NCBI GenBank assembly: GCA_017522785.1
Contig: JAFWYF010000001.1
Coordinates: 1-64,000, forward strand
Reading direction: 5' to 3'
Source: Bacteroidaceae bacterium
Lineage (GTDB): Bacteria > Bacteroidota > Bacteroidia > Bacteroidales > Bacteroidaceae
DNA: 64,000 nucleotides
Shown here: one piece after another, positions 37,791-42,649 of the stretch
How the letters are laid out: each line of letters begins with the position of its first letter
How positions within the stretch are numbered: position 1 is the stretch's first letter
Program-made: the position numbers and the translations under genes
The notes under the pieces: generated by a model
What the model saw: the letters and a program-made list of their open reading frames with translations, nothing else
What the model was told of the DNA's origin: nothing
Databases searched by the model: none

Positions 37791-37836
37791 CAAACATAAA
37801 AAAGTCGCAGTTAAAACTGCGACTTTTTTATGTTTG
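37791..37836. terminator. Bidirectional terminator between pyrH and the VTC cassette
   Basis: Perfect 22-base arms (37791-37812, 37815-37836) around core AAGTCGCAGTT, with A- and T-runs on both sides. It lies between pyrH and the converging cassette. Confidence 0.92.
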
Positions 37837-37845
37837 TATTCTTTT

Positions 37846-39543
37846 TTACTCTTCTCCTTTGCTCAAATACCATCCGCTTTTCTGATTTACTTCTTGGTTT
37901 ACAGGCTTGGTATCATTACTGCTAATAGCATGCATGGTACCATTGTTGAGTGTAATAGATGTCGCAGATATGGCTTTGTCGTATGCTTTCATCAGTAGGG
38001 TTCCGTTGTTTTGCACAAGGTCTATACATGTAATAGCTCTCGACTTCTTGCTATCTGTTGATGTTTGGTGGTTGGGAGCAATTGATAGTAGAGTTACCTC
38101 TCCACTTTCTATTGTAACATTGCCATCTCCATTAATGGCTTTAGCTCCTTCTCCGGTACATTTTATTGCAACAGATGACTCTTTAATAGTGATATCTCCT
38201 ATACATTTAATTCCGCCTGCATAGGTAGTGTCGGTGTCTGCAATAATATGTGCTGATCCATGAGCAATTCCAGTTGTTCTACCTCCGGATATTGTAACAG
38301 TTTTGTCGCAGTTTAATATTTTAGAGCCATTCCCTTCAACCTCAGCGTGAATTACTCCACCTTCTTGAGTGAAACTACCGATTGCTTTTATCGCCGAACT
38401 CTTCTCTCCGGTTGTGTTAATACTCAGATAACCGCCCTTAACTGTTACATTGGGAGTAATAAGTGGGTCGGGCTTGGCCTCTTCTGCCGGGTTATATGAC
38501 GCTTTTATTCCTTCTCCTATACTATTAATATTTAAGCTACCGGCCTCAATGAGCACTTCGCCTTTTCCGCAGTCAATGCCATCGCCCGATGCATTAATAC
38601 TAATCTTAGGCGAACTGTTTTCCATGCGTCCTACGCGGAAAATATCGTTTGTGTGAAAGCCGTCTTTTGCCGCTTCGGTAATATTAATATTACCGCTACG
38701 TATGCGAATATAGTCATCACTGCAAATAGCATGTCCCGAAAGGCTCTTAACATTCAATGTACCTGTTCCGCTGAAAATCAATTGTCCCTCACTGAAGAGA
38801 GTTCCTTTTTGGTCCTCTTCAATTCCGGCAACAATGGTTGGAGCAGAGTATGTGGAACCATCGCACAAACTATTTGTGGTGTTGTTCCCAATACTGAAAT
38901 ATACAGTCTTTCCACTTTGAATGTTTATAGCCGGGCCTGTGGGGTTTGTCAATTCCAAACCGGCCAACATAATCTGGAATTTCTTAGTGCTGTATATCTT
39001 TAAAGAACCATTTTTGCATCCTCCTTTAACAAGATATCGCATTTTGCCAACAGTGGCATCTATCTTTAGATGAGTCTTGTCGGTAGTTGTAAATGTTACA
39101 CCGTTTACAATACTTGGCACGCAAGTAACACTGTTTTCACTAAATGTAATGGTAACTTTAACTGGTTGTGAAGAGTAGTTCTCAAGAAAATCTTCCGATT
39201 CATCATCCATCTCATCGGTAATGATAGTCTCAACAACTTCGTCATACACGTCTGCTTCATTTCTATCAAACTCAACATCGAAATCGGTTGAATATGTTAG
39301 TTGTGTCCCATTTGCAGGGCTTTCAGTGGCAATACATACAACCTTGTCTGTTGCAAAACTGTGTGTCAAATTACCAATATTATGGAATTTGACAAGGCGT
39401 TGTTCGGCATTGAATGTTATCTCTTTATTCTCACCTGCAGGAATCTCTAATACAGTTCCATCTTCGTTACATACATTGTACGATTGTGCTTTGGCATGGC
39501 ATACCGCAACAAACACTCCTAATATAAATAATACTCTTTTCAT
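37846..39543 (-). CDS. Secreted beta-helix protein, Cthe_2159/DUF4353-like
   Basis: A 565-residue exported protein with a signal peptide (residues 1 to about 20, ending HAKAQS). From about residue 170 onward it is built of short repeated strands with the pattern G-x-(I/L)-x-I-x-(S/T)-x-G (GNINITEAAKDGFHTND, KGEVLIEAGSLNINSIGEG), typical of a parallel beta-helix. AKDGFHTND and SGDGIDCG recall the Cthe_2159 (DUF4353) family, annotated as carbohydrate-binding after a polygalacturonate-binding clostridial protein. The acidic region at about 95-125 may bind cations. It is the last gene of the VTC cassette and overlaps the preceding gene by 4 bases. Enzymatic activity is not evident. Confidence 0.75.
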   Translation of the reverse strand: MKRVLFILGVFVAVCHAKAQSYNVCNEDGTVLEIPAGENKEITFNAEQRLVKFHNIGNLTHSFATDKVVCIATESPANGTQLTYSTDFDVEFDRNEADVYDEVVETIITDEMDDESEDFLENYSSQPVKVTITFSENSVTCVPSIVNGVTFTTTDKTHLKIDATVGKMRYLVKGGCKNGSLKIYSTKKFQIMLAGLELTNPTGPAINIQSGKTVYFSIGNNTTNSLCDGSTYSAPTIVAGIEEDQKGTLFSEGQLIFSGTGTLNVKSLSGHAICSDDYIRIRSGNINITEAAKDGFHTNDIFRVGRMENSSPKISINASGDGIDCGKGEVLIEAGSLNINSIGEGIKASYNPAEEAKPDPLITPNVTVKGGYLSINTTGEKSSAIKAIGSFTQEGGVIHAEVEGNGSKILNCDKTVTISGGRTTGIAHGSAHIIADTDTTYAGGIKCIGDITIKESSVAIKCTGEGAKAINGDGNVTIESGEVTLLSIAPNHQTSTDSKKSRAITCIDLVQNNGTLLMKAYDKAISATSITLNNGTMHAISSNDTKPVNQEVNQKSGWYLSKGEE

Positions 39544-40013
39544 CTTTTTATGAATTTTGCGGTTTTACCATTTGATCGTATCAAATATATTCCCTTTGGA
39601 AGTGTTGCAATGCTAATGCTTCCGCCATCGGCTGTTTGGCGTCGTGTGAGAATTTTACTTCCATTAATGTTGTATATGGCAATAGTCTCACCTGCATTGC
39701 AGTTAATGGAAATCTCATCCGATGAAATGTATTGTAACAATTCATTGCCTTCTAATATGGCCGATGATATGCCTGTGTTGTTTGCGTAAGTTGCAATACG
39801 TAAAATATCGGACATATCGCTCTTTATTGTATTGCCGTTGAATTGCTCAATATTAACTGTTGTGCCACTAAATGTTATGCGACTCAATTGGTCGAAAGCT
39901 ATAGTTTGCGAACTATTGTCATTCATTTCTATTACAATATTTGCATCCTCTTGTTGCGAGAAGACTGATATTGCAAACATCGTTGTTATGACTAAAATGT
40001 ATAACTTTTTCAT
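39540..40013 (-). CDS. Small secreted protein with T9SS-type C-terminal domain
   Basis: A 157-residue exported protein with a signal peptide (MKKLYILVITTMFAISVFSQ). After a short strand-rich region (FDQLSRITFSGTTVNIEQF) comes a C-terminal domain of about 75 residues, with ISINCNAGETIAIYNINGSK and LPKGIYLIRSNGKTAKFIKR. That is the pattern of T9SS type A sorting domains, so it is probably displayed on the surface. Apart from the sorting domain it has little bulk, suggesting a small structural or adaptor role. It lies between the DUF2490-like and beta-helix genes and overlaps the latter by 4 bases. Confidence 0.75.
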   Translation of the reverse strand: MKKLYILVITTMFAISVFSQQEDANIVIEMNDNSSQTIAFDQLSRITFSGTTVNIEQFNGNTIKSDMSDILRIATYANNTGISSAILEGNELLQYISSDEISINCNAGETIAIYNINGSKILTRRQTADGGSISIATLPKGIYLIRSNGKTAKFIKR

Positions 40014-40025
40014 ATTTGTTGTTTT

Positions 40026-40898
40026 TTATAGATCGAAAGAGTAACCTACACACACTGCATGACCGGCAGGACTACTGCTGGCATGATTGTCTTGGTACAT
40101 GTAGTAAAGAGATAATTCGTTGTCTTTGTCTATTTTGTATTCGGCTCCCAAACGATAGCGTAGTTTGTCGTGTCCTTTCCACTCATCGGTACGTGTGAAT
40201 AGTTCTACCGAAGCAAAAGGTGTTATCTTGCATTTCTTTATATCCCATTCTGCAGTAAGACGCGAACGTATAGTGGTGCTTCTCTTTGCGTTCTTTAGTT
40301 CAGAACCACCATTGGGGCTATCCTCTTCGGACTCAATGATAGGTGCTGCAAATGGGTCGTTGGGGTCTGACATATCTTTAAATCTGTATTTATCCTCATA
40401 GATAAGCTCACTATGTGTGTATTGATATTGTAAACGCTCGCGAAGGCTGAACTTTATTCGACCAATCTTCCACGATGCTGTAAGCGATACATTAAAACGG
40501 TCGCGCTGTTCCCAATATGCATGGTCTATATTATAGTTGTGGATTGGTGAACCATCTTCGTCGTCTCCTATATACTCTTTAATCTTCTTCTCTTGTTCGT
40601 TGAACGAAGCTATGTAAATATAACCAATGTCGGCTTTGAGCCATGACAATAGGTCATAATTCATGCTAAAGCCAATTGAACGGCGGTCTGTATCAGAAAC
40701 TCCGTTTATGGTTCTTAACTCTCCTTCCAATTCAAATTTTAGTTTATCCGTAAGCTTTTTGCTTATATTTAAACTTGTCCATACACCAAAATCGTCATTG
40801 TTACTCTCTGCATTAGCCTTGCAAATAGGTGATAGCATAAATAGGAGTGCTGCAATATATGCAACTAATCCTTTATTGTTTAATCTTGAATTCATCAC
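40026..40898 (-). CDS. DUF2490-like outer-membrane beta-barrel protein
   Basis: A 290-residue exported protein with a signal peptide (residues about 8-28, ending CKANAES). It is rich in alternating amphipathic strands: FGVWTSLNISKKLTDKLKFE, FSMNYDLLSWLKADIGYIYI, RFNVSLTASWKIGRIKFSLR. It ends in an aromatic strand with terminal hydrophobic residues (AVCVGYSFDL), a signature of outer-membrane barrels. The start WTSLNISKKLTDKLKFELEGELR is typical of DUF2490. It overlaps the DUF4956 gene by 26 bases, pointing to tight coupling. Role unknown; in this cassette it might be the outer-membrane pore or anchor. Confidence 0.8.
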   Translation of the reverse strand: MMNSRLNNKGLVAYIAALLFMLSPICKANAESNNDDFGVWTSLNISKKLTDKLKFELEGELRTINGVSDTDRRSIGFSMNYDLLSWLKADIGYIYIASFNEQEKKIKEYIGDDEDGSPIHNYNIDHAYWEQRDRFNVSLTASWKIGRIKFSLRERLQYQYTHSELIYEDKYRFKDMSDPNDPFAAPIIESEEDSPNGGSELKNAKRSTTIRSRLTAEWDIKKCKITPFASVELFTRTDEWKGHDKLRYRLGAEYKIDKDNELSLYYMYQDNHASSSPAGHAVCVGYSFDL

Positions 40899-41637
40899 TA
40901 GGTGCTTTTATAATTGTGTCTACTGTGTTAATTGAATCATCAGAAGGGCGATAATACATCTTAATAATAGCAGCGTCTTTCAGAAAATCGATTCCACCAA
41001 CCTCAACTTTAACGATGTCCAGTCCGGTGCGTTTCTTTAAATCCTCTATAAGCTCTGTCTCTTTGTCGGGAGTTATAAGATTAACGTTGTCATATTTAAT
41101 CACTTTATACGAAAGATGTCTTATAAATAGATTGCTCTCGCATAGCCATATAGAAAGTATAAAAAGAAGATTGGCTACAACCATTTCGGAATAGCTCAAT
41201 TCTTCTATGACCAAACCGTTAATGGCGCTCATGGCAATAATTATAAACAGATAGGTCATCTCTCTAATGGCAACCTGCTCGGTACGATATCGAATAATAC
41301 TGAATATCGCAAACAGACCAAGAGCAAAGCCTGTCTTTAGTTTGACTCCACCCAACAGGTATATCAATAGAAATATACTTATCGATATAAGAATAAAAGT
41401 GAAAAAGTATTCACCACGTTTACATTTGGGGTAGTAGAAGCAACGTGCCACAACTCCAACAAAGAATAGGTTTATAAAGAATCCAATAAGCAGATTCCAT
41501 ATTCCCGGTAGATTTACAATCTCCCCTGCTAACTGTAACTTGCTTTCAGGGTTTGTTACAAGAAACTCATCTCCCATTGAGGCCATGGTGTTTGCTAGTT
41601 GAGTTCCTCCTGCTAGTAGTGTAGTTAAAATTTCCAT
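40873..41637 (-). CDS. DUF4956 membrane protein
   Basis: A 254-residue inner-membrane protein with about four helices (residues about 46-65, 77-100, 103-140, 151-170). The conserved DUF4956 motif LGLFAIFSIIRYRTEQVAIRE lies at about 107-127, at the cytosolic end of a helix. The C-terminal third is a soluble domain (KKRTGLDIVKVEVGGIDFLKD, AAIIKMYYR). DUF4956 proteins almost always neighbour VTC-domain polymerases, as here (5-base gap). By analogy with yeast, where Vtc4 needs membrane partners, it may form the channel or anchor for the polymer made by the VTC protein; this is inference. Confidence 0.85.
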   Translation of the reverse strand: MEILTTLLAGGTQLANTMASMGDEFLVTNPESKLQLAGEIVNLPGIWNLLIGFFINLFFVGVVARCFYYPKCKRGEYFFTFILISISIFLLIYLLGGVKLKTGFALGLFAIFSIIRYRTEQVAIREMTYLFIIIAMSAINGLVIEELSYSEMVVANLLFILSIWLCESNLFIRHLSYKVIKYDNVNLITPDKETELIEDLKKRTGLDIVKVEVGGIDFLKDAAIIKMYYRPSDDSINTVDTIIKAPSDEFKIKQ

Positions 41638-41642
41638 TTTAT

Positions 41643-42413
41643 TTATGTTGTTTGTTTTTCAAGTTTCTCAATGAATTTTATTCTCTCTTTAAAGTTGTTC
41701 CTCTTTAATCCTTTGTTTGTGAGTGCACTACCTATGCAATATTTACTGAATCCGGAACGTCGTATTCGTAAATCGCGTATTATATTCAGTGCCGGAGATG
41801 GAACATTGCCATCGCGTTTAAGTTCTATAATTGCAACACCTTCCAGATTTTCTCTATCATCGGTAACTAAATTATGGAACCGTAAATCGAAATCAATAGT
41901 CAAACGCTCGGTTTTTCCATAATTCACAAGCGTGATTCTGCTAAATCGGTTTTCGCATGCCGGTTTAATATTTTCCAATTTATACCAAGCATGTTTGGCT
42001 AAGAATGGTACAATTGTTTCGCGCTCTTCTAGTAATGTCTCTACACCTTGCACAGCTATACGTTTTTTCTTTGTGCGACCATGGTTGTTCTTGTTTTTTA
42101 CTTCGAGAAAGGTGTCTTTGCTGTCAAGATATGTTCTTACGCGAATCTTTTCACGACGAGTCTTTCCATTATGGTGCATGGTGTACATAATGTAGTCGGG
42201 AGTATCCAGATATACGGTGTGGTAAGAGGCAATGCGCTTGTTGTTGTGCTGTTGAATGTAATATTTACCCTGTACTGCAAGTAGAAACTCGTTTAATTGT
42301 TTCATCGTTGCTACAAACTTGGTATCAGTTCTGTTCATGAGCTTTATTCCCGACATTTCACTGAGTGAAATCGGTGGCAACATTTCTGTTTTTGCAATTA
42401 CGCCATTTCTCAT
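41643..42413 (-). CDS. VTC-domain polyphosphate polymerase-like protein
   Basis: A 256-residue protein of the CYTH/TTM tunnel fold, VTC-domain type. Basic and acidic tunnel residues are visible in order: NRTDTKFVA, YHTVYLDTPDYIMY, TRREKIRVRTY (about residues 83-93), FLEVKNKN (about 101), VAIIELKRDG (about 200) and SKYCIGSAL near the end. In yeast Vtc4 these residues bind ATP and the growing polyphosphate. No membrane segment is present, so it probably docks on the DUF4956 protein. It heads the five-gene cassette. Polyphosphate as product is inferred from the fold; a bacterial member with this neighbourhood could make or modify another anionic polymer. Confidence 0.85.
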   Translation of the reverse strand: MRNGVIAKTEMLPPISLSEMSGIKLMNRTDTKFVATMKQLNEFLLAVQGKYYIQQHNNKRIASYHTVYLDTPDYIMYTMHHNGKTRREKIRVRTYLDSKDTFLEVKNKNNHGRTKKKRIAVQGVETLLEERETIVPFLAKHAWYKLENIKPACENRFSRITLVNYGKTERLTIDFDLRFHNLVTDDRENLEGVAIIELKRDGNVPSPALNIIRDLRIRRSGFSKYCIGSALTNKGLKRNNFKERIKFIEKLEKQTT

Positions 42414-42451: not shown

Positions 42452-42511
42452 TGCAAATATAATAATAAACGAGCGAGAAATATGAAATTTACTTCGATAT
42501 TTTTTACAGCG
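42452..42511 (-). repeat. 60-bp dispersed promoter element, VTC copy
   Basis: Read on the minus strand, this matches 48283-48342 at 50 of 60 positions without gaps (my hand count). Shared blocks include taaaaaatatcga, ttcatatttct and gctcgttt. It ends in TATATTTGCA, a -7 box 41 bases before the VTC gene ATG. Confidence 0.7.
42454..42461 (-). promoter_or_regulatory. -7 box of the VTC cassette
   Basis: The minus strand reads TATATTTG followed by C, matching TAnnTTTG, 41 bases before the ATG at 42413. No TTTG lies at the ideal distance; the dispersed element supplies the upstream sequence instead. Confidence 0.55.
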
Positions 42512-42526
42512 ACGACGCGAAAATAG

Positions 42527-42558
42527 CGTATTTTGCGACAACTGAAGCTTTAGCTTCA
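42527..42558 (+). repeat. Short element related to the lptD promoter
   Basis: cgtattttgcgacaact followed by gaagctttagcttca resembles 43354-43388 (cgtaattttgcgacaact, then gaactttggcttca). The second half, tgaagctttagcttca (42543-42558), is itself an inverted repeat. Confidence 0.45.
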
Positions 42559-42649
42559 CAAAGGAGTACGGCTTTTAACTGTCCAAAAGTATATATTCGA
42601 GGCTTACCTCAAATATATAAATAAATATGGATTTTTAGTGTTTTTGTGC

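Follow-up and report, generated by a model that had tools for sequence, protein, structure and literature searches.

A conserved VTC-DUF4956 gene cassette with an outer-membrane barrel and surface proteins, a candidate unit for the synthesis and display of a phosphate polymer

What does a VTC-type polymerase do in a bacterium when its gene heads a cluster that runs on to the cell surface? VTC is known chiefly from eukaryotes, where it synthesizes polyphosphate and passes the chain across a membrane. In bacteria, this polymer is usually attributed to PPK1 and PPK2. Neither of these was found in the genome studied here, and across genomes PPK1 and VTC occur independently of each other. In the window (the whole 64,000-nt stretch of DNA analysed), five genes lie on the minus strand between positions 37846 and 42413, with ORFs and Pfam/TIGRFAM matches in the order of families given in the preliminary description. 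The first gene encodes a VTC (TTM-tunnel) polymerase-type protein of 256 aa (41643..42413; PF09359, E 2.1e-30). It is followed after a 5-nt gap by a DUF4956 membrane protein of 254 aa (40873..41637; PF16316, E 2e-52). The next gene, for a DUF2490 outer-membrane beta-barrel (40026..40895; PF10677, E 1.3e-30), overlaps the DUF4956 gene by 23 nt if it starts at the ATG at 40895 (289 aa) or by 26 nt if it starts at a GTG at 40898 (290 aa). After a 12-nt gap comes a small secreted protein of 157 aa with a T9SS type A sorting tail (39540..40013; PF18962, E 9.6e-7; TIGR04183, E 5.5e-8), and its gene overlaps by 4 nt that of a Cthe_2159-family secreted beta-helix protein of 565 aa (37846..39543; PF14262, E 1.2e-47). 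All junctions are gaps of 12 nt or less or overlaps, as had been described. A single promoter had also been proposed. A Bacteroidota-type promoter-like match (42584..42613, minus strand) does lie about 170 nt upstream of VTC, but it is weak, and the pattern scanned, which we take to be the Bacteroidota-type consensus, matched nine times in the window against 3.9 expected. The proposed shared terminator agrees with a palindromic terminator-like hairpin of 20 pairs (37791..37836) between the cassette and a convergent gene, presumably pyrH; the terminator scan reports it on the plus strand only, and the sequence is symmetric enough to act in both directions.

Recurrence of the five families elsewhere had been set beforehand as a check on the cassette. 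Of the 40 family loci fetched, 26, from 13 of 21 genera, carry these families on one strand and in unchanged order; so do 19 of 80 named loci. The two sets share some genomes, and no gap limit was applied to them. The five-gene order is beyond chance because it repeats in both sets. Among nine five-gene loci listed, identity to the window protein is 43 to 77% for VTC and 26 to 59% for Cthe_2159. A conserved neighbourhood without a common pathway would suit the presence of Cthe_2159 in six and of DUF2490 in 16 of the 148 genomes searched despite the absence of VTC. It is very improbable, as order and tight spacing hold across the 13 of 21 genera even though the three outer proteins fall to 20-33% identity to those of the window. 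The family link between VTC and DUF4956 was borne out: DUF4956 is present in 73 of the 74 VTC-bearing genomes among the 148. At the core stands the VTC-DUF4956 pair; DUF2490 often joins it, and the outer part varies. In Bacteroidota that part is Cthe_2159 or CotH, and a small number of plasmid records from other phyla have genes for Porin_O_P, phytase-like proteins or phosphate transport in its place. The five-gene cassette is recurrent in order, but it is not the basic unit.

The PF09359 match spans profile positions 1-233 of 235. Retention of the tunnel residues had been named as a second check. The presumed basic residues of the tunnel and the metal-site glutamate are invariant in the 56 VTC sequences aligned, and the same presumed tunnel residues are kept in 25 of 25 sequences of a divergent VTC class; these residue identities are to be read with the match of the VTC profile to yeast Vtc4 (3g3q), which is weak (E 0.14) and limited to the N-terminal half. 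A Pfam search with E up to 1 matched only VTC in the 256-aa protein, and no SPX domain was detected. Family and invariant residues suggest that VTC would polymerize phosphate from ATP in the cytoplasm. The AlphaFold2 model of DUF4956 (pLDDT 83.2) has five membrane-length helices and a C-terminal alpha/beta domain, and an R-x-R motif is conserved in all sequences sampled. The Pfam matches of this membrane partner include no Vtc1-type family; DUF4956 was matched instead. VTC may dock on DUF4956 as a stand-in for the membrane helices of yeast VTC, and the nascent anionic chain might then be pulled past the conserved arginines and across the membrane.

KdgM porins have a basic lumen. The nearest structures to the DUF2490 model (pLDDT 88.8) are the acidic-sugar channels KdgM and NanC, with which autotransporter barrels tie. 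The predicted lumen carries a Lys/Arg ladder, with the side assigned by strand periodicity rather than from coordinates, and four acidic positions. In part the ladder belongs to the family at large: 73% is also seen in unlinked DUF2490. A Pfam search of the protein returned only DUF2490, DUF7840, DUF481 and OMP_b-brl, and no KdgM match. In the available part of PMC4827864, DUF2490 is TC 1.B.81, with functions not established. Model and conservation are consistent with a barrel that passes the chain or its fragments, be it outward or inward. The same barrel could belong to acidic-sugar handling, as an uptake channel for acidic oligosaccharides, with Cthe_2159 as a pectin-binding surface protein and VTC-DUF4956 as a regulatory or energy accessory. 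The structural resemblance to KdgM and NanC points that way, as do the binding of celluloses and polygalacturonic acid by the Clostridium thermocellum relative of Cthe_2159 (excerpt of PMC6712302), the gut and rumen sources in many record titles, and a fusion with a dockerin from a genome of the same genus. We consider sugar handling decidedly unlikely, since the five proteins have no lyase, glycosidase or SusC/SusD match and VTC-DUF4956 occurs without the barrel and Cthe_2159 in plasmid records from three further phyla, with phosphate genes adjoining in Alphaproteobacteria. Such neighbours would suit phosphate acquisition or storage, in which the periplasm would hold a store of polyphosphate, DUF2490 would take up phosphate or phosphorylated anions, and phosphate-rich material would be captured by the surface proteins. 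Genes for a Pi transporter and phytase-like proteins adjoin VTC-DUF4956 in Nitratireductor, Porin_O_P occupies the barrel slot in Pseudoalteromonas, and DUF4956 without VTC lies beside metallophosphatase genes in two loci (L118 and L299). However, no phosphate-transport or phosphatase match was found in the five proteins, and the regulators near some cassettes are of the LytTR type. The chance of this reading appears slimmer still.

The small secreted protein scores 32.7 bits for TIGR04183 against a cut-off of 23; the same genome has this domain in 15 places, 13 of them above the cut-off. Its N-terminal module is related to that of the Cthe_2159 protein. No lipobox was found on the Cthe_2159 protein of the window. 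Across loci, lipid-anchored Cthe_2159 and the small T9SS protein come close to mutual exclusion, and therefore the small protein is probably the surface anchor of Cthe_2159, replacing the lipid. The exchange pattern supports a Cthe_2159 protein kept on the surface without a lipid anchor, where its beta-helix may bind the polymer, probably via a cation such as calcium.

In loci with CotH, VTC-DUF4956 might instead supply a high-energy phosphate donor outside the cell for CotH-type secreted kinases that modify matrix proteins; Cthe_2159 would be a matrix or substrate part where CotH is missing. A purpose-built profile placed CotH no more than 3 kb from VTC in 23 of the 81 VTC loci of the order, some with low scores, and clear CotH in 6 of 20 loci of other Bacteroidota. 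In locus L155, DUF4956 is followed by CotH (score 65). Pfam confirmed two CotH proteins in L081 and one each in L047, L076 and L124, three of which carry a T9SS tail. CotH also adjoins VTC-DUF4956 in Deinococcus, Planococcus and Pseudobutyrivibrio records, and accompanies Gram-positive pel loci in the accessible portion of PMC7112168. Surface phosphorylation is nevertheless unlikely: the five proteins of the cassette have no CotH match, and no phosphorylated substrate is known.

We tentatively favor a cassette that makes and displays polyphosphate or a similar phosphate polymer, at chances a little below even. The observations are gene order and its conservation, the families, the residue conservation, the anchor exchange and the lack of a PPK1 or PPK2 match in this genome; every biochemical step is inferred. 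The layout proposed earlier, with synthesis in the cell, transport across the envelope and binding or display outside, agrees with the families and with an anion-friendly path made up of the DUF4956 R-x-R, the predicted basic DUF2490 lumen and the Cthe_2159 anchoring by a lipid or the T9SS protein, but not as a fixed set of five genes. A broader and more doubtful proposal is that gut Bacteroidales have a dedicated system for secreting polyphosphate across the envelope, its core related to the eukaryotic VTC synthase-translocase. VTC-DUF4956 would export the chain through an arginine-lined DUF2490 pore into a calcium-bridged coat on the beta-helix, with interchangeable lipid or T9SS-adaptor anchors, and in CotH versions the exported chain would serve as the phosphate donor outside the cell. 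New here are the VTC residue invariance that includes the divergent class, the DUF4956 helices and R-x-R, the DUF2490 likeness to KdgM/NanC with its basic ladder, the anchor exchange on Cthe_2159, and a VTC genome in which neither PPK was found. Given a conserved cassette of VTC, membrane protein, anion-friendly barrel and surface anchor in a genome with no PPK family found, the role of VTC in bacteria and the export of a polymer can be put to the test in culturable Bacteroides. The anchor exchange likewise gives a handle on the surface role of Cthe_2159-type beta-helix proteins.

Compared with the yeast VTC complex (Vtc1/Vtc3/Vtc4), the cassette shares the VTC/TTM domain with presumed tunnel residues and a membrane partner with conserved arginines. 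It differs in having no SPX or Vtc1-type match, in encoding the membrane part as a separate DUF4956 gene, and in adding an outer-membrane barrel and surface proteins. The KdgM/NanC channels resemble the barrel in structure and in its predicted basic lumen, but not in Pfam family, and autotransporter barrels score equally. The Gram-positive pelDEADAFG accessory genes cotH-PPP-DUF4956-DUF4832 (PMC7112168, in part) likewise place a VTC-type polymerase beside DUF4956 with linked surface-matrix genes, whereas the cassette of the window lacks CotH and has DUF2490, the small T9SS protein and Cthe_2159. In B. thetaiotaomicron, BT3498-BT3499 bring DUF4956 and DUF2490 together in a listing, with one expression row (-7.6-fold in iron depletion, P 0.175); the available portion of that source (PMC10434189) describes no cassette. 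C. thermocellum Cthe_2159 is likewise a secreted PF14262 protein, whereas the family member in the window is tied to VTC, with a T9SS partner or, at other loci, a lipid anchor.

The cassette is real and conserved. Five minus-strand open reading frames (37846-42413) are arranged much as claimed in the preliminary description. The VTC gene (41643-42413) is first in transcription order, followed by the DUF4956 gene (40873-41637), the DUF2490 gene (40026-40895, counted from ATG), the gene for a small, 157-aa protein ending in a T9SS sorting tail (39540-40013) and the Cthe_2159 protein gene (37846-39543). The tight or overlapping junctions were borne out: from VTC to Cthe_2159, successive genes lie 5 nt apart, overlap by 23 nt, lie 12 nt apart and overlap by 4 nt. 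Of the single promoter and shared terminator also proposed, the terminator side is supported by a 20-pair palindrome (37791-37836) at the cassette end, but the promoter-like match (42584-42613) is weak evidence. The palindrome lies between the cassette and a convergent gene that we take from its sequence to be pyrH; the neighbor on the other side is presumably an HD-type ORF, also labeled from sequence. Short inverted repeats were seen by eye at 42500-42640, where VTC and the HD-type gene diverge, near the promoter-like site.

Of 148 genomes of the same order (at least 90% completeness requested), 74 carry VTC, 79 DUF4956, 61 DUF2490 and 27 Cthe_2159. VTC and DUF4956 were both present in 73 genomes and both absent from 68; six carried DUF4956 without VTC and one VTC without DUF4956 (the VTC gene there runs off the contig end). 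At 81 VTC loci fetched from the order, the window excluded, DUF4956 was within 300 nt of VTC in 78 and DUF2490 within 500 nt of DUF4956 in 35. Within 3 kb of VTC, Cthe_2159 was matched in eight loci (one weakly) and CotH, by a custom profile, in 23, some low-scoring. Upstream of VTC we also observed a lipoprotein with carboxypeptidase-regulatory/SdrD-like domains (23 order loci) and a secreted repeat protein of about 140 aa (21 order loci; one scanned, no Pfam match); L052, L063, L083, L105 and L106 are among such loci. A protein of about 356 aa precedes VTC in a divergent VTC-DUF4956 class (13 loci, mostly L035-L049); one member gave only a sub-threshold match to an outer membrane efflux protein. 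Four of all the loci fetched (L117, L118, L298 and L299) carry DUF4956 but no VTC, with ankyrin/metallophosphatase or purple-acid-phosphatase-like genes as neighbors; these were checked by Pfam in L118 and L299 and assigned by size in L117 and L298.

At family level, 129 of 201 genomes carry VTC, and these span 21 of the 30 genera. The comparison of gene order called for earlier was made on 40 of these 129 genomes (all 11 listed from the same genus, and between one and three per genus for 20 others). The complete set, collinear and on a single strand, is present in 26 loci, which represent 13 of the 21 genera; in L161, one of the 26, the small gene is preceded by a gap of 481 nt. Five loci show VTC-DUF4956-DUF2490-Cthe_2159 without a small-protein match, six only VTC-DUF4956-DUF2490 (one at a contig end) and three other arrangements. 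In the best 80 of 577 named loci found via DUF4956, some from genomes shared with the order and family sets, VTC adjoins DUF4956 in 76, together with DUF2490 in 69. Five genes in order were found in 19 (including Prevotella sp. MGM2, one Paraprevotella and one Alloprevotella MAG) and the four-gene form in 12 (including Bacteroides salyersiae, B. timonensis and B. ihuae), with the small gene after Cthe_2159 in two of the 12. No VTC match was seen at the B. cellulosilyticus locus. In the wider phylum, DUF4956 occurs in 68 of 247 genomes; 20 loci were fetched, in which VTC adjoins in 17, DUF2490 is matched in 11, CotH clearly in six and Cthe_2159 in none among the genes displayed. Across the loci fetched, nine cassettes (L056, L061, L065, L074, L104, L108, L151, L152 and L165) are followed by a histidine kinase paired with a LytTR response regulator; Pfam was applied to a single protein from L065 and another from L104, and the rest were assigned by sequence or size.

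The small protein most likely carries or anchors the Cthe_2159 protein at the cell surface, as the sequence comparisons suggest. In 72 loci with Cthe_2159 near VTC-DUF4956, the Cthe_2159 protein lacks a lipobox in 42 of 47 loci with the small protein and has one in 22 of 25 without it, a near mutual exclusion with eight exceptions (p 8e-11, kinship not corrected for). The small protein and the Cthe_2159 protein have related N-terminal modules: hhalign gave a probability of 94.7% with E 6e-8, against 2.5% and 0.3% for two control pairings. L134:5699-7723 (minus strand), from a genome of the same genus, encodes one protein in which Cthe_2159 is joined to a type I dockerin (E 1.1e-8) and an N-module of the small-protein kind. 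A dockerin inside a VTC cassette is unusual. Direct polyanion binding by Cthe_2159 proteins is disfavored because they are acidic (mean net charge -16.4, 72 proteins); a bridging cation would fit. The Clostridium thermocellum relative is described as binding celluloses and polygalacturonic acid (PMC6712302). The window's own genome encodes another Cthe_2159 protein of 710 aa, whose start looks lipobox-like by eye (contig C9, L126 8424-10556, plus strand); its gene is on a different contig from the sole VTC gene.

In the tunnel-residue check, the presumed residues are invariant in 56 VTC proteins, and 15 are kept in 25 of 25 divergent-class members, in which E169 and R118 vary. The match of the VTC profile to yeast Vtc4 (3g3q) is weak (E 0.14) and limited to the N-terminal half. 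R91-x-R93 falls on the Vtc4 RLR, which we infer to be R264/R266, with E197 corresponding to E426. The R264A/R266A/E426N yeast enzyme served as an impaired version in PMC9911596. The window genome (98.6% complete) yielded no match for PPK1 or PPK2. Over the 148 order genomes, the presence of PPK1 is independent of that of VTC (46, 28, 49, 25; p 0.73), and PPK1, PPK2 and VTC all occur in B. ihuae, which served as a control.

The DUF4956 model (pLDDT 83.2) shows five helices of membrane length and, at the C terminus, an alpha/beta domain; no structural relative stood out in a search with it. Basic loops face the cytoplasm under the positive-inside rule. Loops on the C-terminal-domain side average 4.1, 3.0 and 1.9 K+R, against 1.4 and 0.2 on the opposite side, so that the former side is probably cytoplasmic, the same side as VTC. 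R116, R118 and G107 are retained in 28 of 28 divergent members; K71, R74 and R125 are not retained. The DUF2490 barrel lumen has four acidic positions. From sequence and models, the cassette may be a synthesis-and-display unit for polyphosphate or a similar phosphate polymer, both polymer identity and direction being putative. We rate this reading at somewhat below an even chance, lowered slightly from close to even because of the partial retention of the DUF4956 basic face in the divergent class and the acidic lumen positions. In yeast VTC, a basic path guides the chain into a channel lined with basic residues (PMC9911596, section 9); the likeness of DUF4956 to that membrane part is one of layout, not of established homology.

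Other phyla were surveyed through plasmid records. CotH-VTC-DUF4956 is found in Deinococcus taeanensis and, amid glycosyltransferase and acyltransferase genes, in Pseudobutyrivibrio; Planococcus has VTC-DUF4956-CotH with a glycosyltransferase further along. Aminobacter and Shinella have DUF4956-VTC-phytase-like, Nitratireductor has DUF4956-VTC-inorganic phosphate transporter-phytase-like, and Deinococcus QL22 has an acid phosphatase and a Phn transporter near VTC-DUF4956. In a Pseudoalteromonas plasmid, Porin_O_P starts 1 nt after DUF4956; VTC there (L248 5520-6423) is a C-terminal piece only, and DUF4956 and Porin_O_P are open frames.

A description of the cassette was not found in listings and text passages from open-licence PMC papers on VTC/DUF4956, Cthe_2159, CotH-polyphosphate polymerase, DUF2490 and Bacteroidales polyphosphate. 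BT3498-99 (DUF4956, DUF2490) appears as a single table row in PMC10434189 (P 0.175). The core pair is already known. VTC-DUF4956 with CotH is described as accessory to Gram-positive pel loci (PMC7112168), and a Clostridium perfringens locus holds VTC and CotH genes (PMC2879425). Within the literature searched, the envelope form seen in Bacteroidales, whose surface anchor can be exchanged, is new.
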